Virus record (IMG/VR): IMGVR_UViG_3300009419_000011
Coordinates: 16,175-80,174 of that record
Origin: a virus
Length of the DNA: 64,000 nucleotides
Direction: 5' to 3' (one strand)
The first letter of the stretch is position 1; every line of letters starts with the position of its first letter. Below are positions 9,926-35,377 of this stretch, piece after piece. The notes below the pieces were generated by a model. The model was not told where the DNA came from and ran no database searches. It saw nothing but the letters and a program-made list of their open reading frames with translations. The position numbers were made by a program, and so were the translations under genes.

Positions 9926-12595
9926 TTATTCAAAGCTGAATAAACTGCCGAATGTGTTGTTCTGGGTAGTAGATTCTAAGTCCCACTCTAGAACTCCAAT
10001 TAAGTTGTCTAACTTGTTGTTGATAATAGTAGCTTCCATTTCGCTATGATCGAACGGAAGTTCTTGGAACCATTTTGGTAAACGCATTTCGTCAACTGGA
10101 TATGCAATTGAAGTATACCCTAATGGGTTGTCTTTCATCTTGCACACAATAACTTTCATACCGTCTACGATGCCCATTGAGTACTTGTCACCGTTCATAC
10201 GTTTCAAAGTATTCCAGTTAATACTAGCACGAACATGTCCTGGCATGTTAGTCCTGCCTGCTTTGACTTCTTTGGCTTGATATTCTGCAATGTTATTTGC
10301 ACGTTTAGGACTGCCTTTTTCCCAACCGGGCCTTTGTTTAAATTCACTTCGGAACTCACCGATGCGTTCTAGAATCTCTTCTTCCTGGGCATTATTAAGC
10401 ACCTTGGTTAGAATTTCTTCTAAGAACTTTTGCATAAATTCAGGAGTATCACTGCGTTTCAAATCTAAGCCCATAGCTTTGATCTTACCTGGCTTACCAT
10501 CTACATCGCTACGCTTGCCTTCTTTGTCATAATACAAAACAGCATAACGCTTCTTAGTAATGAACAGGCCTTTGATAGCAACAATTTCACGACCAGCTTT
10601 GATAACATCTCCTCGAGTTTTCGGGCAGTGGAAGTCGTCTAACATAAATTGTGGAAATGTGCCATTTACTTCTTCGGAGATAGTGTCGTATAGTTGAACA
10701 ACGACTTCTTTGTTCCAGGGTATTTGCCCCTTATTAATCTCGTTTTTTAAGGTTGTGTAAGCTGAAAAGTATACAGAATCTGTATCACCGTATATGATAC
10801 TTTTGCCAGTATAGTTGTACTCACCAGTAACTACTTCATTTACTTTCGCAGCCATATGCCTGGTGATCCGTCGACCAGTAAGAGTTGTGGATTGCCCAAT
10901 ACGATTATCAAAGAACCTACAACCAGCGTTAAGAATAGCACCGTATAGGCTATTGAGGTTAATCTTTTTAACCAGCTGTCTTTTATCCCAATATTCTTCT
11001 TCAACTTTATTCCCCGATGCAATACATTCTTTTAATTTTGCCTGCATTTCTTTACGTTCGGCATACCAACGTTTTAACAATCCGGGAATGATCCCTTCTT
11101 TCTCATAGGTAAAGATAGTACCGTTTGCTGAGATTACCCAAGGCTGATTGCTTTCAAAAATCAGTTCATAGATTTGAGCACCGCTCAGTATATCAACTCT
11201 GCCATCTTCCCAGTCGACAGTGATATCAGTTGCACGATCCTTTGACATAACAAGTTCGTATTCATTACTGCCAAACTTACCTTCCCATGAAGCTGCAAAG
11301 CTAGAACCTTTATTCATCTTACCTTCGATTTCGGTCTTAGTATAAGATTGGCGTAACTGTCCAACAATAGTTTCTGGACCCATGTTCAACGCACGAATAG
11401 CAGACGGATACAATGAGTTAATGTCCATTGATCCGATCCAGTCATGCAATCCTTTTTTAGGATATGCAACATACGCCCCTGCGGCTTGTGTTTCTAAATC
11501 TTCATCACGTTTAGGACGACCCGGAACAATCAATCCGCGGTGATGAGCTTCGTTTACAATTGCCTGTTCAGTAACAGCTACCGCACCCATTGTGGTCTGT
11601 AATAGTACAGTACACTCGTGTGCTAGTGTGTTAGCTAAGTCAATGAACTTTAATTTATTGTCTAGCTTATTCAACAATGCTGTATCTTGTCTATTGTATT
11701 CGATGAACTTGCGAAAGTCATTGTTATACAATTGATCCAAGGTACCTTCGTATTGCGTCTTACTCTCACCTACTTCCATCTCTCCGATGGCATCCAATCT
11801 ATAGGTGTGTCGCTCTTCATAGGTGTACTTGCGGTACAACTCGAGACTGTCCAGATGAACGCGACCAACCAAGTCATAAGTAATAGCTTTTTTTCCATAC
11901 TTCTCGTACTCTCTTTTCTTAGGGAACTGATCCCATAGACACAACCTACGAGTATCTTCTTTACTAAGAACTTTAATGATGCGGTTAACAGTGTAAGGCA
12001 TATCATATCCTTCACTATTCCATCCGCTCAAAATATCCGCATCTTGAATCAGGCCTAGGAATGTTTCTAACATTTCATATTCTGTTTCAAACAGCATGGT
12101 GTTAGGAAAGTCTTTTACTTGCTCCTTTGCCTGCTCCATTGTCAGCGTCTTGGGCGGAACTGCAAGACATACTAATGTATCTAACCATTGCAAGTGGACA
12201 GAAATTGCAGTAATTGGCATAAACGCATCTTCAGGAGTGCTGTAACCGCGTTCTGGATCAAAGTCTACCTCAATATCCCAAAATGCTACATTGAGCTTAG
12301 GAGCATCTTTGCCTAAATAGTTTTCTTCTAGGCATCGGAATACAGGATTAATATCATTTTCAAAGAGTTTTTTTCCTGAGTGAATTCGTGTTACTTTTTG
12401 GAACTCTTTGTAATTTTTGACAGAAACTTTACTTAGTGGATCACCGTAAATTGAACGGTATTTTCCTTTAGCGTCTGGGTAGTATAATACATATTTGGCA
12501 GGATAATCTTGAAAGATTCTGCCTTTCTTTGGATCACGCTCAACGACGCGAATAACGTCCTTGTCGCGATCCCACATTGAATCGACGTAGCTCAT
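9926..12595 (-). CDS. 43: family B DNA polymerase (T4 gp43-like)
   Basis: 889 residues, the usual T4-like length. The 3'-5' exonuclease acidic residues are visible in FWDIEVDF (D107, E109), GWNSEGYDMPY (about 191-201) and YNRQDTALL (D304). The polymerase palm has DINSLYPSAI (D391), KINLNSLYGA (about 544-552) and YGDTDSVY (D604, D606). All catalytic residues are present and there is no intein or split. A 7-bp hairpin with an 8-base loop overlaps the ribosome binding site, as in T4 autogenous control of gp43. Confidence 0.97.
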   Translation of the reverse strand: MSYVDSMWDRDKDVIRVVERDPKKGRIFQDYPAKYVLYYPDAKGKYRSIYGDPLSKVSVKNYKEFQKVTRIHSGKKLFENDINPVFRCLEENYLGKDAPKLNVAFWDIEVDFDPERGYSTPEDAFMPITAISVHLQWLDTLVCLAVPPKTLTMEQAKEQVKDFPNTMLFETEYEMLETFLGLIQDADILSGWNSEGYDMPYTVNRIIKVLSKEDTRRLCLWDQFPKKREYEKYGKKAITYDLVGRVHLDSLELYRKYTYEERHTYRLDAIGEMEVGESKTQYEGTLDQLYNNDFRKFIEYNRQDTALLNKLDNKLKFIDLANTLAHECTVLLQTTMGAVAVTEQAIVNEAHHRGLIVPGRPKRDEDLETQAAGAYVAYPKKGLHDWIGSMDINSLYPSAIRALNMGPETIVGQLRQSYTKTEIEGKMNKGSSFAASWEGKFGSNEYELVMSKDRATDITVDWEDGRVDILSGAQIYELIFESNQPWVISANGTIFTYEKEGIIPGLLKRWYAERKEMQAKLKECIASGNKVEEEYWDKRQLVKKINLNSLYGAILNAGCRFFDNRIGQSTTLTGRRITRHMAAKVNEVVTGEYNYTGKSIIYGDTDSVYFSAYTTLKNEINKGQIPWNKEVVVQLYDTISEEVNGTFPQFMLDDFHCPKTRGDVIKAGREIVAIKGLFITKKRYAVLYYDKEGKRSDVDGKPGKIKAMGLDLKRSDTPEFMQKFLEEILTKVLNNAQEEEILERIGEFRSEFKQRPGWEKGSPKRANNIAEYQAKEVKAGRTNMPGHVRASINWNTLKRMNGDKYSMGIVDGMKVIVCKMKDNPLGYTSIAYPVDEMRLPKWFQELPFDHSEMEATIINNKLDNLIGVLEWDLESTTQNNTFGSLFSFE

Positions 12596-13277: not shown

Positions 13278-13913
13278 TTATTCGTAAGTTACTGTATCAG
13301 AGTCGCCCAATCGCCATTTGGGGTTTGTTTCCACAACCCATTTTTTAGTAGCAACTTTGAAATCTGGAAAAAGCATTTCTTTGGGGTTACTGGCGGCATC
13401 AAAAAATCTACAACGGTTATTGGGCTGTGCTGCATATTGTCCGTTGGCTAACTGTATAAAGTTAAAGCTCTTGTGATCCTCCGGCCATTCACTGTAGCCG
13501 GTATCTATTGTGTTAAGATCTGGACTAGCATTGTCCACTGTAAACATATAGTCGCCCTTGTGTAGTTGACGATCTTTGGCATAAAACTCGCAGGATAGAT
13601 TGCGTAGAAATGCCTTTTGTATCACAGCAATGTCATAACTGAAACAGTCCCAGATCTGTAGTGTGTCAAGTGGTAAAAACTTATCTGGCTCTAGGTCAGT
13701 GTTTCTGCTCACGTAGGCGTGTAGGGGTAGTTTATCATACAGAGCACCGTATCTGGGCAAATAACTTTCAATACGAAATGCTTGACTACGTAAGCTCTTT
13801 ATTGATACCCATATACAAGGTTCGTATTCGCCGTGTCCAGATTTAAAATCATATAAAAATTCTCGACGTACGAAACAATGTACCGGCGGCAAGTTAGCAA
13901 CTAAGAAACTCAT
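13278..13913 (-). CDS. conserved phage protein, 211 aa
   Basis: Starts MSFLVANLPPVHCFVRREFL and contains GEYEPCIWVSIKSLRSQAFR and LPLDTLQIWDCFSYDIAVI. It is rich in aromatic residues and mostly beta. Similar uncharacterised proteins are common in T4-like aquatic phages. It is the last gene of the late block that starts at 20061; one base separates it from the zincin gene. Confidence 0.75.
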   Translation of the reverse strand: MSFLVANLPPVHCFVRREFLYDFKSGHGEYEPCIWVSIKSLRSQAFRIESYLPRYGALYDKLPLHAYVSRNTDLEPDKFLPLDTLQIWDCFSYDIAVIQKAFLRNLSCEFYAKDRQLHKGDYMFTVDNASPDLNTIDTGYSEWPEDHKSFNFIQLANGQYAAQPNNRCRFFDAASNPKEMLFPDFKVATKKWVVETNPKWRLGDSDTVTYE

Positions 13914-13914
13914 G

Positions 13915-14331
13915 TTATTCTTCTAGATTAACAGCGTCGGTATTAAAAAATTCTGGATTTGCTTTGTTAAACTTACGCATCACAATACCGGCTAACTCGT
14001 GTGCTTGATTTTCCTCAGGACTACCTGTAGCACCTGCACCAGGCTGTAGACCAGTTTCTTCGTTTTGTTTGTAATGCACCATTTCGTGTGCCAGTGTTCT
14101 TAGAATGTCTAATGGATGCCTATCTTCGATTGCAATATTGATTATTTTAGTTTCGCTATTGAAACTTCCAAAACTAGGCTGATCGTCTACACTGCCAATG
14201 CGTAAATGCATTTTGATCTTTGGAACAGTTTTTAATTTAAGTTCGTTGACTGCAAAGGGAAGGAACTCCTGAAGTATTTTCATAAAATCAGGTTTTGAAT
14301 TTACATTCTCTAATAAGTCTATGATTTTCAT
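13915..14331 (-). CDS. zincin-like metalloprotease with capsid-targeting-like N-terminus
   Basis: 138 residues. LRTLAHEMVHYKQNE carries the HExxH zinc motif (about 85-89), with EENQAHELA downstream as a possible third-ligand helix. This matches short SprT/zincin-like peptidases of phages. The N-terminus MKIIDLLEN resembles the start of T4 internal head proteins, with LLE as a possible prohead-protease site. The start overlaps the previous stop by one base. Virion maturation or delivery into the host are both possible roles. Confidence 0.75.
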   Translation of the reverse strand: MKIIDLLENVNSKPDFMKILQEFLPFAVNELKLKTVPKIKMHLRIGSVDDQPSFGSFNSETKIINIAIEDRHPLDILRTLAHEMVHYKQNEETGLQPGAGATGSPEENQAHELAGIVMRKFNKANPEFFNTDAVNLEE

Positions 14332-15233
14332 TACTTGATAATTCTACGATCCAGTGCTGCCCATAGACGAGATTCGTAAGCAGGCTCTTTGTTTTTATGC
14401 TTAGTGTCGCCTTGCTTTTGGGCTTTCTTTTTATCTTTGTGAGCACCAGCACCGCTTTGCACAGCATTCTTGGCCACAAAGTTTCGAGGTTTAACTGTGT
14501 GTTTCACAGCACGTACACCTTTCTTATTTTCTTCAACTGGCTTTTCTTTTAATTTACTGCGAGCCTGCATCTTAGACATTTTGTAAGTTGATTGGAATTC
14601 TTCGTCACTCATTGTGCGTAGATCCATTAGGATCTCTTTAACTCCGCCCTCTTTGATACTTTCTTTTTTGTGGCTCTTATAACCCTTGTTTTTCATGGAC
14701 CATGCTAGTGCATATGGATTATCAATATCATCATGCTTCTTCATAGCCTTAACAGTCTTTTCCCATCCTGGCGGTGCAACTTCTGCTACTGCACTTTCTT
14801 TTGGCACACAGTTAGGAACTTGTTTTCCGCCCTTTTTCTTCATGCCAATTTGCTTATAGTCTTTCCAACATGTTTCGTCTAATTCGCCCTCCGCTACACC
14901 TTGCCCTAACACTTGACGAACTAATAGTTCAGGAGCAAAATCCATGTCACCGGCTAGTTCTCTTGCTGCCGACAGCACTGCTTGTCTAGTTGGCTGTAAT
15001 CTTTTTTCTTCTACATCTCTACGAAGTTTCATTATGAGAGATTGTGCATCATATCCCAAATCTCTAACGCCTTCCGCAGTGTTAGTTTCTTGGAACAGCT
15101 TTCCGCTATCAAGAGCATTGTCTGTAGGCTTTTGTCGTCTAATCATCTTGCCAGCCTTGCTAGGTGCAGTTGCTACAGAGCTTGTGCTCATTCCGCCTAC
15201 GCTTGCAGATTCTAAAATTTGTATGATTCTCAT
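14331..15233 (-). CDS. late, probably virion-associated protein with CWKxYK module, 300 aa
   Basis: Begins MRIIQILESASVGG (capsid-targeting-like, ILE as possible cleavage site). Residues 122-144 hold a CWKDYKQIGMKKKGGK...NCVP module also found at the end of the 1270-aa neighbour. A PPGWEKTVKAMKKHDDIDNP segment and a Lys-rich C-terminus (about 235-285) follow. No enzymatic motif is seen. Such modules recur in marine myovirus virion proteins. It overlaps both neighbours by one to four bases. Confidence 0.75.
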   Translation of the reverse strand: MRIIQILESASVGGMSTSSVATAPSKAGKMIRRQKPTDNALDSGKLFQETNTAEGVRDLGYDAQSLIMKLRRDVEEKRLQPTRQAVLSAARELAGDMDFAPELLVRQVLGQGVAEGELDETCWKDYKQIGMKKKGGKQVPNCVPKESAVAEVAPPGWEKTVKAMKKHDDIDNPYALAWSMKNKGYKSHKKESIKEGGVKEILMDLRTMSDEEFQSTYKMSKMQARSKLKEKPVEENKKGVRAVKHTVKPRNFVAKNAVQSGAGAHKDKKKAQKQGDTKHKNKEPAYESRLWAALDRRIIK

Positions 15234-15601
15234 TTTGTTAATTTATTCCTATCAGGAACGGGCCCGTATATGTTTGTAGAGTCTAACTCGTCACTATTCA
15301 TGTCACCGTGATTCATATCTTCATAACTCGCACCGGCAGCTTTGTAGGCTGCTTTTAGCATGTCTGCTTCTACTTGTGTGTAAGGATGTGCAGTCTTCTT
15401 TTTACCTGCCCAACTTTTTGAATCAATGTCTAACTTATTCTTTCCATCGCTCATTGCCGCTGCCATACCAACTCTAAAACTGACGTATCCGCTATCTGCT
15501 TTTTCAGAATCAGAATAACGATGCAGTCCCCGTGTGGATTGCTGCTGACGCTTAGTCAGCTTGCCGTTAGTTCTTTCAGCGATGAATTCTTTTGCTCTCA
15601 T
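15230..15601 (-). CDS. internal-head-protein-like basic protein, 123 aa
   Basis: The first nine residues MRAKEFIAE closely match the capsid-targeting start of T4 internal proteins (MKTYQEFIAE), with IAE a consensus gp21 cleavage site. The rest is hydrophilic: KRQQQSTRGLHRYSD, VSFRVGMAAAMSDG and DIDSKSWAGKKKTAHPYTQ. Similar proteins occur in cyanophages. I infer packaging in the head; the function is unknown. Confidence 0.75.
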   Translation of the reverse strand: MRAKEFIAERTNGKLTKRQQQSTRGLHRYSDSEKADSGYVSFRVGMAAAMSDGKNKLDIDSKSWAGKKKTAHPYTQVEADMLKAAYKAAGASYEDMNHGDMNSDELDSTNIYGPVPDRNKLTK

Positions 15602-15609
15602 AGTGTTAT

Positions 15610-15876
15610 TTATTTTTTACCAAACCAAAGTTCGAACCAAGCCGGCGTACCCGGTTTAATTCCCTGTTCACGCATTATGCGAGCATTTTCGTTACCATGT
15701 TGACTATGTAGCGGTATATCTCTTTTTGTCAAGTATTCACGCATACGCTGTTCTGCACCTAACTCTCCTAGCCAGTTACTAGATTGTAGTGCATGTACAG
15801 GATCATCTGGGCTTAGAGCACAGTCTGGATCAGTTGAAGCATCTACAGGGAATCCTGCTATTCGATATTGTTTCAT
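15610..15876 (-). CDS. hypothetical late protein, 88 aa
   Basis: Starts MKQYRIAGFPVDASTDPDCA and ends GIKPGTPAWFELWFGKK. It overlaps the stop of the large fusion gene by four bases, so it is part of the same operon. It lacks the capsid-targeting-like N-terminus of its neighbours. Function unknown. Confidence 0.65.
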   Translation of the reverse strand: MKQYRIAGFPVDASTDPDCALSPDDPVHALQSSNWLGELGAEQRMREYLTKRDIPLHSQHGNENARIMREQGIKPGTPAWFELWFGKK

Positions 15877-18800
15877 TTATTGCTTTCGAACAGTTTTAAA
15901 ATTGCCAGCGTCATTTCGAGTTCGTATGCTTCGCCAATTGGCACACACTTATCTTTACCATTCTTAGTACCTGCGTACTTATAACCTTTCCAACAGGCTT
16001 TTCCGTCTGCACCTTTTTTCTTATCAGTCTCGCCTACTAATTTATGTGTAGGTTGTTCTTTAGGTGCTGTACCTTTTAACTGGCCTTGTGATCCTAGTTT
16101 GTTTTTATTACTACCTGCAAATTTGTTTGCAGACATCATTGCTTCATTCTTCTTAGCTATGTTTCTGCCTTTTAAATGTTCTTCACGACGTTTGTCACCA
16201 GCAGCACGTAGTTTGGCCGTAGCACCATCTTTAGGATTAGTTAATCTACTGGCAACCTGTGCCATTGCGGAACTATTATCTTCCCCTACCTTCTTTTCAT
16301 CATTAGCAAACTGTTTCTTAGTTGCCTTAACAATGCCGCTAAAACGTTTGTTGCCTTTGGCATAGTCGCCTGCTTTATCGGCAGCACTGGCTTGGGCACC
16401 TGCGGCTGTTTTATATTGTGCTAATTTTTCGTTGGATAGCTCTGACACAATCTGCCTTAAGTTGTTAACAGCAACGCTTTCGCTAATCTTTGGATCCCTG
16501 CCCATTTCTTTTTGGCTCAACAAATAATCCCAAACACTAACTAGCATCATTTCTGCTTTGGCAATCTTTTCTTGTCCCCATTCTGGTAGGTTGTCATTAC
16601 TCTTAATAGTTTTTAATAAGCCGTCGACTGCACGAGCCATTGTGCGTAGATTACTCTGTGCCATTCCTGCTTCGTCGTCGTACTCGCCGTCGAAGTTTTC
16701 GTTCTTAGCCTTTGCTTTGCCTGCTTTCATATTTGCCATCCAATGTGCTAATTGTCCTTTACGTCCGCCTTGTTTAGCTACTTTACGTAGATTACTGACT
16801 GACGATTTTGTGGGAACTCCGTGACGCTTACTGTCGCCCTTGTCTTGTGGGTTGCGACCGTCTGCAAAGTTTTCATTTAACATCAGTGCGTTAAACAATC
16901 TCATTTCACCTAGTGCAGGTTGTTCAACTGGCTGTGGTGCAGGTTGAACAGCAGGCTTCTTAACTGCTGGTTTTAATTGAGGCGTACTCATACCAGTCTT
17001 TGACACATCCATTAGATGTTTGATCCATTGTGAAGGTAGTGGCTTTGCACCATCTTGCCCGCCATTAAATGCATCATTCCACATTTGAAATGCCTGTTGT
17101 TCATCTCCAGTTTTTAACACATTGCGTAGCTTAGTAAAGCTCATGCCAGTGCCTCTAGGAGTAACTTCTAACTGAACTTTAACATGCTCATATCCGGGAA
17201 ACTTATTAACTGCTTTCATCAAAGCCTGTGCAATAGGCATCTTGGCCTGATCTTCACCTACCATAATAACAACATTATCGTAACGTGGAGGTTTACCCGG
17301 CAACGGATTAATCAGCTCGTGCTTGATCTTCTGCATCAAAGATCCGCCTTCTTGAGTTACAGCACCAATGTTGGCTGCATACTCTGGATACAGTTGTTTC
17401 CAAGTTTTAATTTTATCTGCAACAGGAATAGGATCATCTACACCTACAGCATTACCCATAAACAAGTATGGATCTCCACTGACTTCTTTCGCCTTATTAA
17501 TTGTAAGACCGAATAATTGTTGATGACCTTTGTGTCCTACAAAACTGCCAATGGCTACTACCGCAGTTTTATTTCCTGTACGTGGTTGTTCTGTACGTGC
17601 TGCTGCTTTAGCTGCCTGCTTGTCTGCAATAATTTTCTTTTGCTGTGAGCTAGTAACTTTGATAGGTCCTAGACGACTATTGATAACAATGCCTTCGTAG
17701 TCTTGTCCTAACAAGTCCTTGCCTAATATATTAGGATCTTCTTGAATTGCTTTTTCTAATGCTAATGCCACAGGTGCTAATATTTCTTTAGCTTCTCGCT
17801 TTTGTGCAAGTTTACCGCTGGCTAACATTGCTTTAATTTGTTCAATGTTTTCAACTGGGGGAACTATTGCAGTAACGTCTAGTCCTTCTTTTTGTGTTAA
17901 TGAATTATCAATAAACATAACACTGCCTTGCTTGCCTAATCCTGTTAGTTGTTTAACAACAGATTGTGCATCGCCTAAGTCTTCTCCAGATGTTGCATCA
18001 ACAACACGGAAGGGAACTAGTGCCAATTGAATTCCTTGTGGTAACTTGTCGTAATGTATACCTACAAATTTTAATTTGCCTTCTGGAGTTTCTGTTGCAA
18101 ATGGTAAGAACAGCACTTCGCAAGTGACCTGCTTATTGACTAGAAATTCTGGACCTAATTTGCTATCAACTAATTTGATAGCGTTCATCATTTCCATGAA
18201 CAGCTTGTCAAAGTTTTGAGCCCGACCTAGAATCTCAGGATCAGTTGTTCCCTTTTCTTGATGGTACTTAACAAAGCTAGGTGCATACCTTGGGGGAGTA
18301 TTACTAGTAGCCATAAATGGCTTGCCGTCTGCATCCTTACCAAAGCGTCCACCGAAACCATCTACTTTAACGTTTAATGGAATGTTTTGTAGTTTAAAAT
18401 TGCCATTACCGTCATGAATTTCGTCAATTAGATCTAATAAGTCAACTGGCTTTAGATCACGCAGGTGCGGCATATTCTTACGGAACTGTGCCTTAACTTC
18501 TTCTGCTTCCTGCAAACTTTCGGCAGTTACTTTATAAGCTGCTTTATATTGTTGCTTCATTTGTTCAAGGTCGCCTGGTGCTTGAACACCTAATTTATTA
18601 ATCATAAGATCTAACGCAGCAGATTTTTCTGCACTATCACGTTCTGGATCTCCTTTGTAAAGGCCCTGAGCACCTTTGCCAAATATTTTATCAACAAATG
18701 CTGACAACACTGACTGCTTTTCTTCTGGAGTAACTAGAGTGTTCATTGCATCTAGTAAACCGGTAAAGCTCCAATACTTACTTTCTAACTGTGCTGCCTG

Positions 18801-19685
18801 TTTAGGATTCAATCTAGAACCAAAGATAGATCCAAAAATCTTTCCAATATCCTGTTCGTAGCCTGTTGCAGGTAATGCCTGCATAACCGGCATGCCGTTG
18901 CTGACTATAGGCTGACCATCTGCTCCTAATACTGGTTCGTATTTGGCACGTAGACCACCACCTTCTTTGCTAGATACTGCAAAGCTGACCATGTTATCAG
19001 TTGTAGGCACATCTTGTATTTCTTTTGCTTTGCCCCGGCCTACTGATTTGCGTAGTAAGAAATCTTTTCTACTTAATGATGCTAGACTTTGAATTAAGAA
19101 CTTGTGGAATACACCCTTAACTCCTGCGTTCAGATCATCCCAGCTACTGCTGTGACTAAATTTACTCCACGGAGTTGGCTCGTCCTTTTCAAATGCTACA
19201 AACTCTAAGTCAATTTGTACTTTAATAGGAGGATCTTGTAGTTCCCATAGACTAGAGAACTGCTCGTTACCACGTTGGAAACCTAAGAACTTAGCATTGC
19301 CTACCATCTTACCTTGACTGGTAGATAACCATTGTTCTAGTTCTTGTTCGTTTTCTTTATTGACTTGTGTGTCAATGTCGCCAACTTTAGGCTTCTTCTC
19401 CACAAATTGTTGATCGGTAATACCCTTGGTATTGAAGAAGTGTAGACTACTTCCGCTTAGAAATTGTTTACTTTGTAGTAGTTGCGGATTCCACAAAGGC
19501 TTTTTGTATTTTTTTGCAAAAGAATTGTTGATATTAAGCAACAAGGTATCTAAAATTGGTACAATATAGGAACGATTATGTACTTTAAGATCAATTTGTT
19601 GTGCTTCGTGTCCGCCAGGTAGCGATAAATTGCCGCCTTCTGAAACAACTTTCTTTCTATTACTAAACAGCTCATTTAAATTCAT
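15873..19685 (-). CDS. nucleotidyltransferase - ATP-dependent ligase - HxGH adenylyltransferase fusion
   Basis: 1270 residues. An N-terminal polymerase-beta-type nucleotidyltransferase shows GSS (77-79), GDIDTQV (102-108) and a third Asp in VQIDLEF (156-162). A covalent nucleotidyltransferase (RNA/DNA ligase) domain has the lysine motif K440-V-D-G, CEVLF (about 522-526), YEGIVINS (663-670) and a Lys in GPIKVTS (673-679). An HxGH nucleotidylyltransferase domain of NMNAT/cytidylyltransferase type has H718-K-G-H721 and GTGMSFTKLR (845-854). The last 350 residues are low-complexity, with a DNLPEWGQEKIAKAEMML segment and a CWKGYK...KCVP module. The N-terminus MNLNELFSN and the late operon suggest virion packaging. 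Substrates are unknown; RNA end repair or NAD-linked chemistry are conceivable. Confidence 0.85.
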   Translation of the reverse strand: MNLNELFSNRKKVVSEGGNLSLPGGHEAQQIDLKVHNRSYIVPILDTLLLNINNSFAKKYKKPLWNPQLLQSKQFLSGSSLHFFNTKGITDQQFVEKKPKVGDIDTQVNKENEQELEQWLSTSQGKMVGNAKFLGFQRGNEQFSSLWELQDPPIKVQIDLEFVAFEKDEPTPWSKFSHSSSWDDLNAGVKGVFHKFLIQSLASLSRKDFLLRKSVGRGKAKEIQDVPTTDNMVSFAVSSKEGGGLRAKYEPVLGADGQPIVSNGMPVMQALPATGYEQDIGKIFGSIFGSRLNPKQAAQLESKYWSFTGLLDAMNTLVTPEEKQSVLSAFVDKIFGKGAQGLYKGDPERDSAEKSAALDLMINKLGVQAPGDLEQMKQQYKAAYKVTAESLQEAEEVKAQFRKNMPHLRDLKPVDLLDLIDEIHDGNGNFKLQNIPLNVKVDGFGGRFGKDADGKPFMATSNTPPRYAPSFVKYHQEKGTTDPEILGRAQNFDKLFMEMMNAIKLVDSKLGPEFLVNKQVTCEVLFLPFATETPEGKLKFVGIHYDKLPQGIQLALVPFRVVDATSGEDLGDAQSVVKQLTGLGKQGSVMFIDNSLTQKEGLDVTAIVPPVENIEQIKAMLASGKLAQKREAKEILAPVALALEKAIQEDPNILGKDLLGQDYEGIVINSRLGPIKVTSSQQKKIIADKQAAKAAARTEQPRTGNKTAVVAIGSFVGHKGHQQLFGLTINKAKEVSGDPYLFMGNAVGVDDPIPVADKIKTWKQLYPEYAANIGAVTQEGGSLMQKIKHELINPLPGKPPRYDNVVIMVGEDQAKMPIAQALMKAVNKFPGYEHVKVQLEVTPRGTGMSFTKLRNVLKTGDEQQAFQMWNDAFNGGQDGAKPLPSQWIKHLMDVSKTGMSTPQLKPAVKKPAVQPAPQPVEQPALGEMRLFNALMLNENFADGRNPQDKGDSKRHGVPTKSSVSNLRKVAKQGGRKGQLAHWMANMKAGKAKAKNENFDGEYDDEAGMAQSNLRTMARAVDGLLKTIKSNDNLPEWGQEKIAKAEMMLVSVWDYLLSQKEMGRDPKISESVAVNNLRQIVSELSNEKLAQYKTAAGAQASAADKAGDYAKGNKRFSGIVKATKKQFANDEKKVGEDNSSAMAQVASRLTNPKDGATAKLRAAGDKRREEHLKGRNIAKKNEAMMSANKFAGSNKNKLGSQGQLKGTAPKEQPTHKLVGETDKKKGADGKACWKGYKYAGTKNGKDKCVPIGEAYELEMTLAILKLFESNK

Positions 19686-19686
19686 T

Positions 19687-20061
19687 TTATTTTCCTAACC
19701 GATACATGCCTTTGAGGATGTCGCCGTTGTAGTGTTCTGATAATCGAGTGCATAAAGATTCTCTAAACTCTTTGGAAAATAATTTTTTAGGATCTTCTTT
19801 AAGATCAAATCTATGATAAAATTTCATGCAGCCTTTATTGGCCAACGGCATCCAAACTTCCGGAGTATGCTCGGCAGTGGGTTTGTTTCCGATTTCTTCC
19901 GCAATCGGGAAGAAGACCTTTTTATGCAAATTGTCGTCATTTATGATATATTCTAATATATCTTCTAACATCTGTGTTTCTTGAAGCTTGTCGTTTTCTT
20001 CATTTTTTGACAGCTTGTCGTTTTTGATGTTTAATCGTCCAAAGAATTCATTTAATAGCAT
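19687..20061 (-). CDS. late hypothetical protein, first gene of operon, 124 aa
   Basis: Starts MLLNEFFGRLN, like the adjacent virion-type proteins, followed by a Lys/Asn/Glu-rich stretch and DKLQE, a possible prohead-protease site at about residues 25-29. The second half (EVWMPLANKGCMKFYHRFDL) looks globular. It is the first gene after the late promoter motif at 20113-20120. Function unknown. Confidence 0.7.
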   Translation of the reverse strand: MLLNEFFGRLNIKNDKLSKNEENDKLQETQMLEDILEYIINDDNLHKKVFFPIAEEIGNKPTAEHTPEVWMPLANKGCMKFYHRFDLKEDPKKLFSKEFRESLCTRLSEHYNGDILKGMYRLGK

Positions 20062-20609: not shown

Positions 20610-21287
20610 CTTAACTAATGTATCTCGAGGTATGTATTCGTACACTTTGCGGATGTTGTTGCCTAAGAACAAATGAGTCATGGTCAACATCTTACTGTCC
20701 TTAACGTAAAAGAACGGATCTTGTTTATACGAGTATCGTCCAGTCATCCATTCTTCAGTAGTTGGGCTAATTTTAATATCGTCACCGTATTTTTTAGCCC
20801 ATTCGTGGAATTGTAATTTTACATTAGATGCAACATTCCGCATGACAACTTTATAAACATACTTTTCATGAGGTATGACATCACACAATACTCGTTTGTT
20901 TTCGTTATCTAACAAAAATGTTAATTGGTCTGGAGTTTCTGGCTCGTATACTGTCCATAACCACGGAGATAGATCTTTCAAAATACTGTTATAAACTGTA
21001 GGATCTTTACAGAAAAGGCAGAACTTGCTGCCTTCTGCTCTAATCTGAACTTCTTCCTTACGGTCTAAGTAAGACATAACCGCGTTGGTAAATGCACGAA
21101 GTTTATCTTTGTCAACTGCAATTTTTGAATATCCTAAACTAACAGCTTTACCGTCGCAATAATCTAATACAGGGCCAATGCCGTATCGAACTATTCTACT
21201 AGAAGCCGTTACAAGGCATTCAACCTTGTAAGGCCACTTGTTATAGAATAGCTTATTGACCTTCTGTCGCTTTATCGATTTCAACAT
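20604..21287 (-). CDS. conserved hypothetical protein, 227 aa
   Basis: A basic-to-neutral globular protein (MLKSIKRQKVNKLFYNKWPY) with KFCLFCKDPTVYNSILKDL and ITTEEWMTG-like patterns but no motif I recognise. It overlaps the ClpA C-terminal gene by 35 bases, so it is likely coupled. Its position after the Clp genes makes it a candidate adaptor or substrate, but nothing in the sequence proves this. Confidence 0.7.
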   Translation of the reverse strand: MLKSIKRQKVNKLFYNKWPYKVECLVTASSRIVRYGIGPVLDYCDGKAVSLGYSKIAVDKDKLRAFTNAVMSYLDRKEEVQIRAEGSKFCLFCKDPTVYNSILKDLSPWLWTVYEPETPDQLTFLLDNENKRVLCDVIPHEKYVYKVVMRNVASNVKLQFHEWAKKYGDDIKISPTTEEWMTGRYSYKQDPFFYVKDSKMLTMTHLFLGNNIRKVYEYIPRDTLVKG

Positions 21288-22182
21288 TTTCTACTACAGG
21301 TAAAATTTCAGGATATGTCAAAGTAAGATCGTTACCTTTAACACCTACTTCAACTACTCCTCCGTTTACTAATCGACCGAATAAGATTTCCTTACTTAGC
21401 GGCTTTTTAATCATATCATCAATTGTACGTTGTAGTGGACGAGCACCCATCTTACGATTGAATCCTTTCTTAATTAACAATTCGGCAGCATCAGCAGTCA
21501 GCTTAACAGCAACATTCTTATCTTTCAACAATCCATTCAGTTCGTCAACAAACTTCTTGACAATCTTTGCCATAGTGTTGTGATCTAGTTTACCGAACTT
21601 GATAATGCCGTCTAATCGATTGCGGAATTCTGGCTTGAAGAAACTGTTAATAGCACCGTCAGTTTCGTCTCCACGCTCTAAGCTACCAAAGCCCACTGCA
21701 TTGCGATCATTGTCAGCAGCACCTAAGTTACTGGTAAGGATAAGGATAGCATTGCGGCCGTCCGCCTTCTTGCCGTTAGATCCAGTAACATAACCGTTAT
21801 CCATCATTTGTAGCAGTACATTGGCAACATCCGGATGTGCTTTTTCAATCTCATCAAACAACAAGATAGCATTTGGGTGCTCTTGCAGTTTAGTAATCAA
21901 CATACCTGCATTGTCTTCAAAACCAACATATCCAGGAGGGGCACCGATAAACTTAGCAACTGAGTGTTTCTCTTGGAATTCACTCATATCAAAGCGAACT
22001 AGTTCTACTCCCATACTTGCAGCCAATACTTTAGCAGTCTCAGTCTTACCTACACCTGTTGGACCTGTAAATAGGAAACTACCTACTGGCTTGTTCAAGC
22101 TCTTCAAGCCTGCTTGTGCAATAAAGATTTTATCTAACAAGATTTCGATAGCAGTTTCTTGACCAAACACTTTGTTACGCAT
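21253..22182 (-). CDS. clpA: ClpA-like ATPase, second AAA+ domain (C-terminal part)
   Basis: 309 residues from ATG 22182. It holds a complete AAA2 domain: GPTGVGKT (40-47), AILLFDEIEKAHPDV (105-119), GFNRKMGARPLQR sensor-2 region and a C-terminal small domain. AVGFGS (162-167) sits where ClpA has its IGL ClpP-docking loop, so [LIV]-G-[FL] is conserved. No ribosome binding site precedes ATG 22182, while homology continues upstream in this frame and joins the AAA1 gene after a shift of one base. It is therefore probably the second half of one protein, made either by frameshifting or as a split subunit. Confidence 0.88.
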   Translation of the reverse strand: MRNKVFGQETAIEILLDKIFIAQAGLKSLNKPVGSFLFTGPTGVGKTETAKVLAASMGVELVRFDMSEFQEKHSVAKFIGAPPGYVGFEDNAGMLITKLQEHPNAILLFDEIEKAHPDVANVLLQMMDNGYVTGSNGKKADGRNAILILTSNLGAADNDRNAVGFGSLERGDETDGAINSFFKPEFRNRLDGIIKFGKLDHNTMAKIVKKFVDELNGLLKDKNVAVKLTADAAELLIKKGFNRKMGARPLQRTIDDMIKKPLSKEILFGRLVNGGVVEVGVKGNDLTLTYPEILPVVENVEIDKATEGQ

Positions 22183-22232
22183 GTTCTTGTCGAGATCTTT
22201 AAGATTCTTGTTTTCTTTTTGTGCAATTTGAT

Positions 22233-23522
22233 CTAGCGCAAACCAGTCAGTTTACTGACTTCAAACAAAATTTCATCGTGATCGACAATACCTTGTTCTT
22301 CGTCTCGTACTTTAAATCTAGCACACGCACAATCAATTAGGTCAATTGCTTTATCTGGTAATTTCTTATCAGTCATGTACTTGATAGAATACTTTACGCT
22401 ATCAATTACTGCTTGATTAGTGATCTTAACACCGTGATGTTGTTCATAATACTTTTTAAGACCTTTGATAATCTTAATAGCGGTAGCTTCATCTGGCTCG
22501 TTTACTACAACACGTTGGAATCGACGCATTAGGGCACGATCCTTTTCAAAGTGTTTGCGGAACTCTTCCCATGTAGTTGATGCTACGACTTTGATAGTAC
22601 CTTTGCCTAACGCTGGCTTGAGCATATTAGCCATGTCATTAGATCCACCGCTTGCTGATCCAGCACCGTTCATCATGTGTGCTTCGTCAATGAACAAGAT
22701 ACAGTTCTTTTTCTTTTCAAGTGCAGTAATTAGCATCTTTAGGCGTTCTTCAAAGTCGCCTCGATATTTGCTACCTGCTAGCAAAGCACTGATATCTAAA
22801 CTGTAAACTGTGTGCCCTTGAATAAACTTAGGAACCTTGCCTTCTTCAATCTTACGTGCTAGACCTTCTGCAATAGCAGTCTTACCTACACCCGGATCAC
22901 CGATCAGCATGACATTTGATTTTTGACGGCGTGCTAGTGCAAGTTGAATTTCTTCAATTTCTTTCTCACGTCCAATAACTGGATCAATCTTTTTCTGTTT
23001 AACTCTATTGGTTAAGTTTGCACAGTACTGAACAATCATCTTTTCTAGTTGATTGCCACCTACTTCACTAGCTTCACCGTCTTCGTTCAATGCACTGTTA
23101 TTCAGGAATTCGATAAACTTGTCTTTATCGATTTTAGCCTTACGTAGGAAGAAGTTAGCAAAGCTCTTCTTTTCGCTAAAAATACTAATGAAGCAGTCAA
23201 CTGGTTCAATTACTGTACGCCCGCCAAACAATACTTGTGTAAAAGCACGATTCAACATACGTTCTACAGTGTTTGTTTTCTTTGGGCGATAATTTTCTTT
23301 GTCGGTTTTAATGTCGTTAAGATCATCTCGAATAAATTTTTCGAGGCTCTTCTTTAGCAGTTCGACTTCGGCACCAAACTCTTTCAGCATCCCTTTGAAC
23401 TTTTCATCAGTTACCATACTGTACAAAAAGTGTTCCAGCGTGATATACTCATGTTTATGTTTGGCAGCAACCTCAATTGCACGTTCAAACATTCCTTCGA
23501 GATCGTTATTTGGTTCCAGCAT
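22233..23522 (-). CDS. clpA: ClpA-like ATPase, N-domain and first AAA+ domain
   Basis: 429 residues. Residues 1-140 form a Clp N-domain (MFERAIEVAAKHKHEYITLEHFLYSM), followed by AAA1 with GDPGVGKTAIAEGLA (208-222), CILFIDEAH (274-282) and a sensor/arginine-finger region MRRFQRV. It ends EVSKLTGLR then TAG, just where ClpA/ClpB continue VSRWTGIP and into AAA2. No middle ClpB coiled-coil is present, so ClpA type. It overlaps the peptide deformylase stop by one base. With ClpP at 59976-60596 it could form a phage ClpAP protease. Confidence 0.9.
   Translation of the reverse strand: MLEPNNDLEGMFERAIEVAAKHKHEYITLEHFLYSMVTDEKFKGMLKEFGAEVELLKKSLEKFIRDDLNDIKTDKENYRPKKTNTVERMLNRAFTQVLFGGRTVIEPVDCFISIFSEKKSFANFFLRKAKIDKDKFIEFLNNSALNEDGEASEVGGNQLEKMIVQYCANLTNRVKQKKIDPVIGREKEIEEIQLALARRQKSNVMLIGDPGVGKTAIAEGLARKIEEGKVPKFIQGHTVYSLDISALLAGSKYRGDFEERLKMLITALEKKKNCILFIDEAHMMNGAGSASGGSNDMANMLKPALGKGTIKVVASTTWEEFRKHFEKDRALMRRFQRVVVNEPDEATAIKIIKGLKKYYEQHHGVKITNQAVIDSVKYSIKYMTDKKLPDKAIDLIDCACARFKVRDEEQGIVDHDEILFEVSKLTGLR
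22245..22260 (-). promoter_or_regulatory. perfect hairpin at the clpA frame junction
   Basis: Read on the minus strand, AGTCAGT-AA-ACTGACT is a perfect inverted repeat immediately before the point at which the AAA1 frame must shift back one base to enter the AAA2 frame (before TAG 22235-22233). No classical X XXY YYZ slippery heptamer is present between the last AAA2-frame stop and the TAG. Confidence 0.4.
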
Positions 23523-28945: not shown

Positions 28946-28953
28946 TATTTATA
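28946..28953 (-). promoter_or_regulatory. TATAAATA, exact T4 late promoter octamer
   Basis: Minus-strand TATAAATA 17 bases before ATG 28928. It would start the 28928-24917 block of late and lysis genes. Confidence 0.75.
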
Positions 28954-32230: not shown

Positions 32231-33079
32231 TTACACCTCAAAAATAAAGTTATCGTCAAATTCTACTTCACCTGGATAACCTCTAGGGTTGCAGACAACT
32301 CTAGTATCCCCTACCATATAGTCAAACTGTTGATGCATGTGACCATGAGTCCAAGCCTTAATCCTAGGATGATCTAGAATAAACTCACTCAGATTGCTGG
32401 CATATCCACCGTTCATCAATGTGTCATCTTTGTACCGATCTCCTATGCTGAGAAACGTAGGAGCATGGTGAGTACATACAACTACTTTAGCATCTTGAGG
32501 CAGGCCTTGTACAACAGTTTGAATGTACTGCTTGGTCTTAATATGCTCAACCACAGCTCGCTTGGGTAAGAACTTTCTAAAGTTCTCATTAGCAATACGA
32601 ATGACTTTAAAGTCGTTCATCATATGCTCAATATGATACAGAGTAAGAGCATCGTGATTGTTCATGTCAGTCCAAAGTGTACCGCCTATGAAATAAACAC
32701 CGTCAATTTCTTTAGTGTTATTATCCAACAGATGCACATTGGTCAGACCCATTTTCGTAAATTCATCTCTCAAATATTTTGCACTTCGATCGAATTTACC
32801 GTGATAGTGTTCGTGATTACCCATCACATAGATAACATGCGGGAATTGAAAACTAACACGCTTAAAGAAATCTCGGAATCTTTGTGCTTTGCCTGCTTGA
32901 CGCTTAAGATCTTCTAATGCACCGGGACTCCAGGGATCAAACTGAGCCGCAGGATGGTCATGAAGATCTTGTGCTGTACAAATGTCGCCAGACAGCACCA
33001 AAACGTCCGCACCATTTTGGTTCTGGAGGTTCAGATCATGAAACTCTAAGTGGAGATCTGATGCTAATTGGATTTTCAT
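32231..33079 (-). CDS. calcineurin-like metallophosphoesterase
   Basis: 282 residues with all five metal motifs in order: SDLHLEF (D8, H10), LSGDICTAQD, GNHEHYHG, CTHHAP and THGHMHQQFDY. It probably hydrolyses a phosphate mono- or diester; the substrate is unknown. It overlaps the cytidylyltransferase by four bases. Such single-domain phosphoesterases are frequent in T4-like marine phages. Confidence 0.9.
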   Translation of the reverse strand: MKIQLASDLHLEFHDLNLQNQNGADVLVLSGDICTAQDLHDHPAAQFDPWSPGALEDLKRQAGKAQRFRDFFKRVSFQFPHVIYVMGNHEHYHGKFDRSAKYLRDEFTKMGLTNVHLLDNNTKEIDGVYFIGGTLWTDMNNHDALTLYHIEHMMNDFKVIRIANENFRKFLPKRAVVEHIKTKQYIQTVVQGLPQDAKVVVCTHHAPTFLSIGDRYKDDTLMNGGYASNLSEFILDHPRIKAWTHGHMHQQFDYMVGDTRVVCNPRGYPGEVEFDDNFIFEV

Positions 33080-33534
33080 TTTTTGCTTTCTGCTTCTGCC
33101 ACACGCTTGCGTAGACTGCTGGAACTAAAACTGTGGTCTCTACCGTTAAAAACTAAGTTAATGCCTCTTTGTAAGCAAATAGCTTTACCAGTAAATTCTT
33201 TCTCTTTGTACTCTATACCTAATATTCTAACATCAATTGGTAAAATGAGCAAGAGATCTTCTAGGTCTTTTTCAGTATTATACACCACAATTTCGTCAAC
33301 ATAGCGAGTTGCAGCCAACTGAATTTGCCGTTCTACAATGCTTTGTATTGGCTCATTCTTTTCTGGACGATCCCACTTGGCATTGTTTTGTAACCCTGCA
33401 ATAAGGTAATCGCAGTGATTGCGAGCTTCACTTAGCATAGCAATATGGCCTGCATGTAGCATATCAAATTGGCTAAAGGTAATGCCAATCTTCATTCCTT
33501 GCTTTTTAAGCTCTTGTATTTTGTTGAAGATCAT
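33076..33534 (-). CDS. HxGH cytidylyltransferase-like nucleotidyltransferase
   Basis: 152 residues, close to glycerol-3-phosphate cytidylyltransferase (TagD) and the RfaE C-terminal domain. It has GITFSQFDMLHAGHIAML with HAGH (27-30), the RQIQLAATRYVDEIV segment and SFSSSSLRKRV as the ISSTxLR-type motif. It activates an alcohol phosphate with CTP or ATP. With the sugar dehydrogenase and glycosyltransferase it might serve glycan chemistry, but these are 28 kb apart. Confidence 0.88.
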   Translation of the reverse strand: MIFNKIQELKKQGMKIGITFSQFDMLHAGHIAMLSEARNHCDYLIAGLQNNAKWDRPEKNEPIQSIVERQIQLAATRYVDEIVVYNTEKDLEDLLLILPIDVRILGIEYKEKEFTGKAICLQRGINLVFNGRDHSFSSSSLRKRVAEAESKK

Positions 33535-34634: not shown

Positions 34635-35000
34635 TTATTGCACGAACGGTTTAAGATCTGGTGGAGTCCAACCAATAGGTTTTAAAACCTTACCATCTTC
34701 ACGCTTACGTACTTTGCCTGTTTCGCTATCAATCTTAGCAAAGTTAGTACGCATAACTTCTTTCCAACCGCCTTCTCCGTCAAATCCTGCACTATGGATA
34801 GCACCGACTGTGACAACAATAAAGTCTAGTAGTGCATCTAATGTTTCTACATTGTCGTTATTGTCAATGGCAACACGAAGTTCTTTCCACTCTTCTTCCA
34901 TAAGATTAAGATAGAGTTTAAATTGTTCTTGATTAAAGCCTTCGACGCTTTGATCGCAGGCCCGCATAAATTTCTCTTGGTCACGAAATGGATTTGTCAT
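34635..35000 (-). CDS. MazG/PRA-PH-like pyrophosphohydrolase
   Basis: 121 residues. FNQEQFKLYLNLMEEEWKEL (23-42) carries the ExxE pattern (EEEW-E) and TLDALLDFIVVTVGAIHSAG (48-67) the second acidic motif (DxxxD), as in phage HisE/MazG-like phosphohydrolases. A C-terminal KPIGWTPPDLKPF is typical of this phage family. It shares one base with the GroES-like stop. It differs from the half-size MazG-like protein at 1112-1384; the two may act on different nucleotides. Confidence 0.82.
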   Translation of the reverse strand: MTNPFRDQEKFMRACDQSVEGFNQEQFKLYLNLMEEEWKELRVAIDNNDNVETLDALLDFIVVTVGAIHSAGFDGEGGWKEVMRTNFAKIDSETGKVRKREDGKVLKPIGWTPPDLKPFVQ

Positions 35001-35377
35001 TATTTTCCTACATTAGAAGTATTTTCAGCCGGTGCTCCCACTTGGAAGGCAAATAGAGCATCATTCGGCATATCATCACTTGACATTAGTATAGCATTAT
35101 TATCTACCATACGCAACTCGATCATTTCGCCATCTTCAAGTTCGTACTCAATGCTTCTAGTCCAACGACCGTGCTCTATAAGAATCCATTCGCCAACTTT
35201 AACTTCTTTTTGTTCAGGCCCGATAGCAAACACCTTAGCCCAACGAGGATGAATTCCCTGCACCTTACCGTTATCACTAGGAATGATAATACCTGAAAAA
35301 GTTTTCTGACTATCAAAATTCATATCCGAAACAAGTACCTTGTCTCGAATAGGAACAATCTTACCTACAACTTTCAT
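35000..35377 (-). CDS. GroES-like co-chaperonin (T4 gp31 analogue)
   Basis: 125 residues. It aligns with the Cpn10 fold: KIVPIRDKVLVSDM at the start, FSGIIIPSDNGKVQG as mobile loop region, AKVFAIGPEQKEVKVGEWIL and EHGRWTR, then MVDNNAILM near the end. T4 gp31 replaces host GroES so that the GroEL chamber can fold the capsid protein. Similar genes exist in cyanophages. It overlaps the next gene by one base. Confidence 0.88.
   Translation of the reverse strand: MKVVGKIVPIRDKVLVSDMNFDSQKTFSGIIIPSDNGKVQGIHPRWAKVFAIGPEQKEVKVGEWILIEHGRWTRSIEYELEDGEMIELRMVDNNAILMSSDDMPNDALFAFQVGAPAENTSNVGK

Follow-up and report, generated by a model that had tools for sequence, protein, structure and literature searches.

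The window analyzed here is a 64,000-nucleotide stretch of viral DNA, positions 16175-80174 of the 80,174-base virus record IMGVR_UViG_3300009419_000011 (record label G000), and this study concerns one of its genes. The open reading frame (ORF) at 15873..19685 on the minus strand starts with ATG and encodes 1270 amino acids (aa), arranged as a leader, a nucleotidyltransferase (NTase) domain, a ligase-like domain, an HxGH domain, and a modular tail. The N-terminal leader, a putative capsid-targeting-type propeptide (residues 1-16, 19638..19685), ends in VSE/GGN, where the slash marks the cleavage-type site. It is followed by an NTase of the Pol-beta superfamily (residues 17-393, 18507..19637) and, in the linker to the ligase domain, by a second predicted cleavage site, LQE393/A394 (18504..18515). 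The remainder consists of a ligase-type adenylation domain (residues 397-691, 17613..18497), an HxGH nucleotidyltransferase (residues 704-900, 16986..17576), and a mosaic tail rich in the tripeptide [LIV]xE (residues 906-1270, 15876..16970), all on the same strand.

The initial annotation had proposed that three nucleotidyl-transfer domains are fused in this protein, and the motifs that it named were located at GSS 78-80, GDIDTQV 102-108, and QIDLEF 157-162 in the NTase, at KVDG 440-443, EGIV 664-667, and K676 in the ligase-type domain, and at HKGH 718-721 and SFTKLR 849-854 in the HxGH domain. Its description of the tail as low-complexity did not hold, as the entropy of the tail is 3.97 bits compared to 4.01-4.07 bits for the domains. 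The tail is a K/A/G/N/E/Q-rich mosaic in which no Pfam domain was found at E≤0.01, and its modules reappear elsewhere in the tails of relatives and in a few neighboring proteins of relatives. The tail of one relative (L005, 6001-10809) contains an inserted LysM domain and a phage lysozyme domain (PF00959, E 4.5e-16) between cleavage-type sites.

Conservation and folds of the three domains

A scan of viral contigs with the NTase alignment gave 154 relatives, of which 80 loci were kept, and iterated profiles were run on these loci together with earlier loci and named phages. NTase, ligase, and HxGH domains occur in this fixed order in 76 ORFs; as seven of these are second copies, they stand for 69 distinct records, the window included. 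Only one or two of the three domains are present in 23 ORFs, some of which are ended by contig edges. Clustering of the 76 ORFs at 95, 80, 60, and 50% identity gave 52, 44, 17, and 6 representatives, respectively. Among the 44 representatives that share less than 80% identity, all of the catalytic motif residues checked are invariant, namely G78, S79, D103, D105, and D159 in the NTase, K440, D442, G443, E523, E664, G665, and K676 in the ligase-type domain, and H718, G720, H721, and R854 in the HxGH domain. The three-domain protein is thus real, conserved, and unusual: the fusion and its order are not a product of chance, and no loss of the checked motif residues was seen in the representatives. 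A protein of 100% identity is encoded in a 192.8-kb viral contig (G001), and versions of 83-89% identity are found in others. The version in G003 is 1602 aa long, and the same type is present in G002 and G004.

When the window protein was searched alone, Pfam gave FAD_syn at E 0.032 (15.9 bits versus a cut-off of 27), a sequence search of the PDB gave a best E of 2.2, PHROGs gave only families of unknown function, and no NCBIfam family matched. Sequence searches of the PDB with the ligase and NTase profiles stayed at chance level (best E 0.11 and 0.6, respectively), and the ligase–HxGH profile recovered the FAD synthetase RibF at E 3e-4 through its HxGH part. The three domain assignments are supported by the conserved motifs, by the predicted folds, among which that of the ligase is weakest, and by split-gene relatives. 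Judged from the AlphaFold models (pLDDT 91.3 for the NTase and 89.4 for ligase plus HxGH), the predicted folds fit the assignment firmly for HxGH, moderately for the NTase, and weakly for the ligase.

The HxGH motif of HIGH nucleotidyltransferases is present in 44/44 representatives, together with a predicted nucleotidyltransferase fold. VIA-align superposed this part on PPAT with a Z of 12.9 (rmsd 3.2, 151 residues aligned), in a list that was filled by HxGH matches and did not cover the ligase part, and Pfam FAD_syn was matched by 42 of 46 relatives (best E 2.5e-6). Similarly, the NTase has the GS ... DxD ... D motif of Pol-beta nucleotidyltransferases in 44/44 representatives and a predicted palm fold with a moderate Z. 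VIA-align matched it to DNA polymerase mu at Z 8.4 (rmsd 3.5, 153 aligned) and to TUT7 at Z 8.2 (rmsd 2.8, 94 aligned), but these rows re-examine Foldseek's own list, and a Z of about 8 can be common according to the tool. The best 50 rows all belong, by title, to enzymes that we take to be members of the Pol-beta superfamily. A search of BFVD gave two matches at E≤0.001, both nameless. RlaP (PF10127) was considered as an identity for the NTase and rejected, because none of 49 NTases matched this family at E≤0.1; among 15 records, PF10127 was found only in 121Q.

A Foldseek search with the ligase–HxGH model returned FAD synthetase (2.0e-5), the fungal tRNA ligase Trl1 (8.5e-5), PPAT (1.6e-4), an archaeal RNA ligase (8.4e-4), and DNA ligases from 1.1e-3. 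In the standard numbering of ligase motifs, motifs I, III, IV, and V of the covalent nucleotidyltransferase superfamily are found in 44/44 representatives by our own motif assignment. The ligase call rests mainly on these motifs, because the ligase fold matches lie at about the level of that to an unrelated aldolase, also at 8.4e-4, and superpose poorly (rmsd 11-23). The cut-off of RNA_ligase PF09414 was reached neither by the relatives, of which 1 of 46 matched at E 0.056, nor by the ligase part of Campylobacter phage CP220 (E 0.029, 15 bits versus 27). The layout of an ATP-dependent DNA ligase, which needs an OB-fold with motif VI after motif V, was not found either: the HxGH match starts 28 residues past K676, and an OB-fold elsewhere in the protein was not searched for. 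The aldolase match and the poor superpositions count against these assignments, as do the caveats on the VIA-align scores and a Foldseek search in which the NTase matched no PDB entry at E≤0.001 (best 9.2e-3).

Leader and linker sites

In phage T4, internal proteins are made with leaders of 10-19 residues, which direct them into the core of the head and are then cleaved off by gp21. Processing of the IPIII leader is governed by its residues 8 and 10, cleavage takes place after Glu, and foreign proteins fused to IPIII or to the IPIII leader are packaged and delivered (PMC9026906, PMC5694885, in the passages cited). The stretch that precedes the NTase in the window protein and its relatives varies in sequence and length and ends in [LIV]xE/G in all 43 testable representatives (the 44 minus the truncated L024). 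P3 is L in 29, I in 9, and V in 5 of them (V in the window), and P1 is E and P1′ is G in 43/43. The leader is 11-22 residues long in 38 representatives and 124-143 residues long, within a longer upstream frame, in 5. The motif is found in 74 of the 76 ORFs, the other two (L004, L024) being truncated. One feature of a T4-type internal head protein, a leader of 10-20 residues that ends in [LI]xE, is present, with L or I at P3 in 38/43; T4 gp21 prefers these residues at P3.

A second site of this type lies between the NTase and the ligase. The variable linker that joins them (mean 24.9 aa) contains [LIV]xE in 44/44 representatives, mostly followed by A (34), compared to a mean of 13.8 and a maximum of 23/44 in 2000 shuffles and a mean of 17.4 and a maximum of 26/44 in windows of the same length taken from the tail. 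When the set is restricted to less than 60% identity, leader and linker site are both found in 17/17. The linker between ligase and HxGH (mean 11.5 aa) has [LIV]xE in 0/44, where shuffles expect 0.6, and this agrees with the finding that ligase and HxGH form one chain in Vibrio phage pv27 and in CP220. Within the three folded domains the tripeptide is rarer than in shuffles (97 versus 173, 127 versus 190, and 53 versus 91), and in the 44 tails it is more frequent (226 observed versus 123.5 expected).

The long upstream parts are homologous to window proteins encoded close to the gene: those of L023, L069, and L091 to the protein at 13915-14331 (blastp E 1.1e-30 to 8.1e-37) and those of L025 and L065, like that of L064, to the protein at 19687-20061 (blastp E 1.8e-14 to 2.2e-23). 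They may be in-frame fusions in which the site sits where the two parts meet.

The T4 record served as a control. IPII and IPIII have EFIAE/A at residue 10, IPI has TITE/A at 19, gp22 has LIAE/A at 9, gp23 has FLTE/A at 65, and gp24 has LLRE/S at 10; in Alt, gp67, and gp68 the tripeptide [LIV]xE is found at residue 6, and further matches occur in several of the T4 head proteins. Among 34 further T4 proteins encoded in the same stretches of the record, [LIV]xE ends at residues 8-20 in 9 and is followed by A, S, or G in 0. Of the 15 carrier or comparison records, 11 encode a gp21-family protease (Peptidase_S77, PF03420), G003 among them, and no peptidase domain was found within the 1270-aa protein itself.

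Split genes, cyanophage relatives, and neighboring genes

Several phages carry the same domains in separate genes. Xanthomonas phage X1 and Stenotrophomonas phage Mendera have adjacent genes in the order NTase, an extra gene, ligase, and HxGH. In pv27 and CP220 a single gene encodes ligase and HxGH, and another the NTase; in CP220 the NTase and ligase–HxGH genes lie ~66 kb apart (about 84.8 and 18.6 kb, respectively). Likewise, L034 has an NTase alone and a fused ligase–HxGH, L061 and L084 have an NTase–ligase without a detected HxGH, and L047, L049, and L055-L057 have an NTase alone in the stretch examined. The separate ligase gene of L072 opens with a short stretch that ends in FFE/SEV at the matching place, the F at P3 being outside the motif.

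The NTases of the split-gene phages match the window NTase by sequence, and the window ligase matches those of X1 and Mendera (blastp E 1.6e-14 and 1.1e-8). Homology between the window ligase and the ligase part of pv27 and CP220 was not demonstrated (profile E 0.29, blastp E 1.7 or worse), and the window HxGH domain has no direct match to that of X1 or Mendera. The HxGH parts of X1, Mendera, pv27, and CP220 match one another, and the window-type and split-phage-type HxGH profiles meet only via cyanophage and 121Q proteins that are matched by both. Because the HxGH match is only indirect, the connection between the split-gene phages and the window rests on the NTase, on the ligase in two phages, and on gene order.

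Among 50,697 phage records, NTase matches were found in 38 and matches to the pv27-type ligase–HxGH in 39, with 36 accessions in common. Phage IBB_35 is represented by a different record in each list, LR756500 appears only in the ligase–HxGH list, and for the Stenotrophomonas and Xanthomonas records in that list only the HxGH part matched. This co-occurrence supports a joint function of the NTase and ligase–HxGH and does not prove it, as shared descent also favors co-occurrence. A tblastn search with only the HxGH domain of a sibling gave no phage record at E≤0.01.

The window HxGH domain is homologous to the cyanophage protein T4-GC190 (hhalign E 2.8e-10, 189 columns). T4-GC190 is described as a cyanophage core protein, annotated as "cytidylyltransferase" and reported in S-SM1 virions (PMC3037559, in the passages cited), and a cytidylyltransferase was also reported in virions of S-CREM2 (PMC10665884, likewise). 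T4-GC190 scores above the CTP_transf_like cut-off (30.4 versus 21), and leaders such as MKKFSAFLNE/A in S-SM1 were found in 36 of 51 such ORFs. Its gene overlaps that of a DUF6267 (PF19782) protein in S-SM1 and S-ShM2. In an alignment of three DUF6267 proteins, KWDG, a QxD motif, EGFV, and KLV are common to all (examples bearing the ligase-type motifs KWDG, EGFV, and KLV lie at L110:4354-5328, L096:4791-5711, and L111:3287-4534). These may correspond to ligase motifs I, III, IV, and V, and DUF6267 may be an unrecognized family of ATP-dependent ligases. It is found in 469 phage records and was named in no paper in a literature search of one open library. The link between DUF6267 and the window ligase is at the level of motifs only, because homology was not demonstrated (hhalign E 0.058, limited to the motif I region) and PF19782 matched in 0/7 window-type records.

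In P-SSM2, DUF6267 lies about 99 kb from the HxGH gene, so the adjacency of the two is not universal; of 80 DUF6267 loci, 67 have more than 600 nt downstream, and an HxGH gene lies within 900 nt in 35. A leader was found in 17 of 84 DUF6267 ORFs, a count that takes the start furthest upstream and can thereby miss leaders. Methylophilales phage Melnitz-1 encodes four neighbors, a PD-(D/E)XK-like protein, DUF6267, a small basic protein, and HxGH, with leader-type ends at residues 10, 10, 13, and 9 that are followed by A, D, R, and A, respectively. A PD-(D/E)XK-like protein, recognized by eye from its motif, adjoins the ligase in X1, Mendera, S-SM1, and Melnitz, and those near ligase or HxGH genes at L010:8948-9952, L013:8728-9672, L110:3505-4338, L111:2209-3294, and L095:4836-5513 have no Pfam match above the cut-off.

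Several genes close to 15873..19685 are also on the minus strand. The upstream neighbor (19687..20061) encodes 124 aa, and its homologues stand in frame before the NTase in L025, L064, and L065. The protein at 15230..15601 starts with EFIAE/R, close to the T4 IPIII leader EFIAE/A; that at 14331..15233 starts with ILE/S at residue 8; and the metallopeptidase-like protein at 13915..14331, whose homologues precede the NTase in frame in L023, L069, and L091, has LLE/N at residue 8 and reached E 0.0083 against DUF6782 (15.8 bits versus a cut-off of 27). Among the four neighboring window genes with a leader-like start, G or S follows the E only in 15873 and 14331.

Further afield, a ClpA/ClpB-like gene (named by eye) at 21253-23522 is present as two ORFs of 309 and 429 aa, compared to single ORFs in L002 (756 aa) and L005 (771 aa), and this split is a frameshift or an assembly error in the window record. 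A QueE-like radical SAM protein is encoded at 277-1119 (phrog_2076, E 3.7e-53), and queuosine-type genes also lie near the NTase/ligase/HxGH set in X1 and Mendera; a connection with deazaguanine modification is conceivable. The window also contains a separate second nucleotidyltransferase-type gene at 33076-33534 (phrog_7878, heptose adenyltransferase annotation, E 2.9e-28) and a GroES-like or head-morphogenesis co-chaperonin at 35000-35377 (phrog_931, E 2.5e-14). The protein at 13278-13913, near the DNA polymerase gene at 9926-12595, matches phrog_3704 (ferredoxin annotation, E 1.4e-85).

Proposed function and alternatives

The reading of this protein as a head polyprotein is well supported by its sequence. 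The initial annotation had suggested that the protein is possibly delivered with the DNA; the leader, the internal cleavage-type site, and a homologue family reported in virions give indirect support to this suggestion. Its view of the protein as one enzyme is probably wrong, as cleavage would likely yield at least two products, an NTase and a ligase–HxGH protein. We consider the chances to be about even that this gene of a T4-like phage codes for a polyprotein packaged in the head, whose function would most likely be to mend nucleic-acid ends on entry. First, the leader would direct the chain into the prohead core. Second, a gp21-type prohead protease would remove the leader and separate the NTase from the ligase–HxGH protein. 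Third, both products would enter the host with the DNA. The mending of ends at the moment of entry, before phage gene expression, is the weakest step of the proposal. The NTase would restore lost 3′ nucleotides, the ligase would adenylate and join the ends, and the HxGH domain would supply or remove an activated nucleotide. End repair fits this scheme because a virion-delivered set would act before phage genes are expressed.

The internal head proteins and Alt of T4 share with the window protein a short N-terminal leader ending in [LIV]xE before the mature protein (PMC9026906, PMC5694885, in part). The genomes compared here are likewise T4-like, and a gp21-family protease is encoded in the 11 of 15 records mentioned above, to which the window record does not belong. 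The window protein, whose packaging is a prediction, differs in combining three catalytic domains with a cleavage-type site inside the chain. Polyvalent proteins (Iyer et al. 2017, PMC5512222), which are marked by embedded peptidase or ArdC/MuF/DarA-type domains, are also multi-domain, are thought to enter with phage DNA, and have been likened to polyproteins. However, they are released by embedded peptidases, whereas the window protein would be cut by the prohead protease, and no ligase–NTase–HxGH set is described in the passages cited. RlaP with Rnl ligases (PMC7824862) similarly places a Pol-beta NTase alongside an ATP-dependent RNA ligase, but these are treated there as RNA-repair genes rather than head proteins, the cited passages mention no HxGH partner, and the window NTase is not matched by PF10127. 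T4-GC190 (PMC3037559, in part) shares the homologous HxGH domain and a leader, and its gene overlaps a DUF6267 gene bearing ligase-type motifs in S-SM1 and S-ShM2; it differs in that the genes are separate and have their own tails, and no homologous NTase was found in four Kyanoviridae records.

Several observations weigh against the head-polyprotein reading. The gp21 protease was not found in G000 (the window record, 80 kb), G001 (192.8 kb), G002 (164 kb), or G004 (228.8 kb), and the G003 protease as a query still gave nothing in these four. They make up four of the eight window-type records, and G001 and G004 are similar in size to protease-bearing relatives, so that contig size does not account for the gap in these two; the missing protease in the four records is the main difficulty of this reading. 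The T4 control indicates that the bare tripeptide [LIV]xE lacks specificity and that the four-residue form does better. The shuffles overstate independence because the 44 sequences are related, and the 0/44 in the ligase–HxGH linker is uninformative alone because only 0.6 was expected. The low pLDDT of residues 388-395 has little meaning, since these residues are also the end of the modelled NTase. In the long upstream fusions, an internal start near the join is possible, including one at ME/GGN in L025, L064, and L065. The leader is absent from the standalone NTases of pv27, X1, and Mendera, which begin M-GGN, and from the ligase–HxGH protein of CP220; the DUF6267 and nuclease-like proteins of S-SM1 have no leader within 20 residues. 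The separate NTase of CP220 does have the leader. No match to the NTase was obtained in 121Q, LR756500, T4, or the four Kyanoviridae records, and the authors of the S-CREM2 study noted that such proteins may merely co-purify with virions (PMC10665884, in part). Leader-like starts are found in 14 of 70 ORFs across the window, compared to 9.1 expected and a shuffle maximum of 20, which is not significant. The earlier label of a late gene also found no support in T4-type late promoters: TATAAATA, the T4 late-promoter core, occurs once in the window, at 28946, versus a chance expectation of 5.06, and not at the 15873-19685 gene. As the motif is rarer than chance across the window, late genes may use another promoter.

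The substrate of such a set could be RNA, such as cleaved tRNA, or DNA, and RNA is slightly favored. The leaning to RNA reflects the lack of room for an OB-fold after motif V and the described link between Pol-beta NTases and RNA ligases (PMC7824862, in part); DNA is suggested by the nuclease-like partner and by the length over which the NTase aligns with pol mu. Accordingly, one alternative holds that the set repairs DNA, with a Pol X-like NTase filling or tailing ends and the ligase sealing breaks in the incoming genome, as a minimal end-joining kit with a sometimes present nuclease-like partner. In the VIA-align rows of the NTase, pol mu ranks first, with about 150-197 residues aligned, compared to 93-113 in most terminal-transferase rows (one TUT7 row, with 194 aligned at rmsd 8.6, is the exception), DNA ligases enter the Foldseek list of the ligase–HxGH model, and the PD-(D/E)XK-like protein stands beside the ligase in four phages. 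The 28 residues between K676 and HxGH leave no room there for an OB-fold, however, and the ligase part of CP220 weakly matches an RNA ligase family. DNA repair is considered rather unlikely. RNA-end repair is the leading, though unproved, function, and RNA or unspecified nucleic-acid end repair is placed first with modest confidence.

It seems improbable that the protein is an ordinary cytoplasmic RNA-repair fusion that is not packaged, in which the leader and linker motifs would be coincidental or structural. The lack of a leader in X1, Mendera, and pv27, the protease missing from half of the window-type records, and the linkage of RlaP Pol-beta NTases with RNA ligases in jumbo phages (PMC7824862, in part) would fit such a fusion. 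It is opposed by the leader in 43/43 and the linker site in 44/44 representatives, by an NTase that is not RlaP by profile, and by the cyanophage relatives reported in virions (PMC3037559, PMC10665884, in part). Least probable of all is that the substrate is a small molecule or a protein (NAD, CTP, or sugar activation; protein AMPylation) rather than nucleic-acid ends: the HxGH fold does match PPAT, NMNAT, and FAD synthetase, most relatives match FAD_syn, and a 2021 survey connects HIGH-superfamily NTases of phages with the chemistry of NAD or sugars (PMC7824862, in part), but this view leaves the conserved partners, ligase and Pol-beta NTase, unexplained, and the coupling to NAD or CTP chemistry raised by the initial annotation found no support beyond the fold, since the window protein matches no NMN adenylyltransferase model and the standalone HxGH protein of X1 scores at most 34 bits against such models (cut-offs at least 100).

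Returning to the packaged end-repair set, a broader and more tentative proposal can be made. T4-like phages, from cyanophages to freshwater phages, would carry in their heads a pre-made end-repair kit with a ligase and an HxGH nucleotidyltransferase as its core, DUF6267 being the ligase of the cyanophages. The lineage of the window would add a Pol-beta NTase and make the kit as one polyprotein cut by the prohead protease, much as the retroviral protease acts on Gag-Pol. If this is true, phages would inject ready-made repair enzymes that blunt RNA- or DNA-cutting defenses in the first minutes of infection, and the substrates of the prohead protease would include a polyprotein made up of injected effectors. 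T4-GC190, as a core virion protein of cyanophages, and DUF6267 would also gain a testable role.

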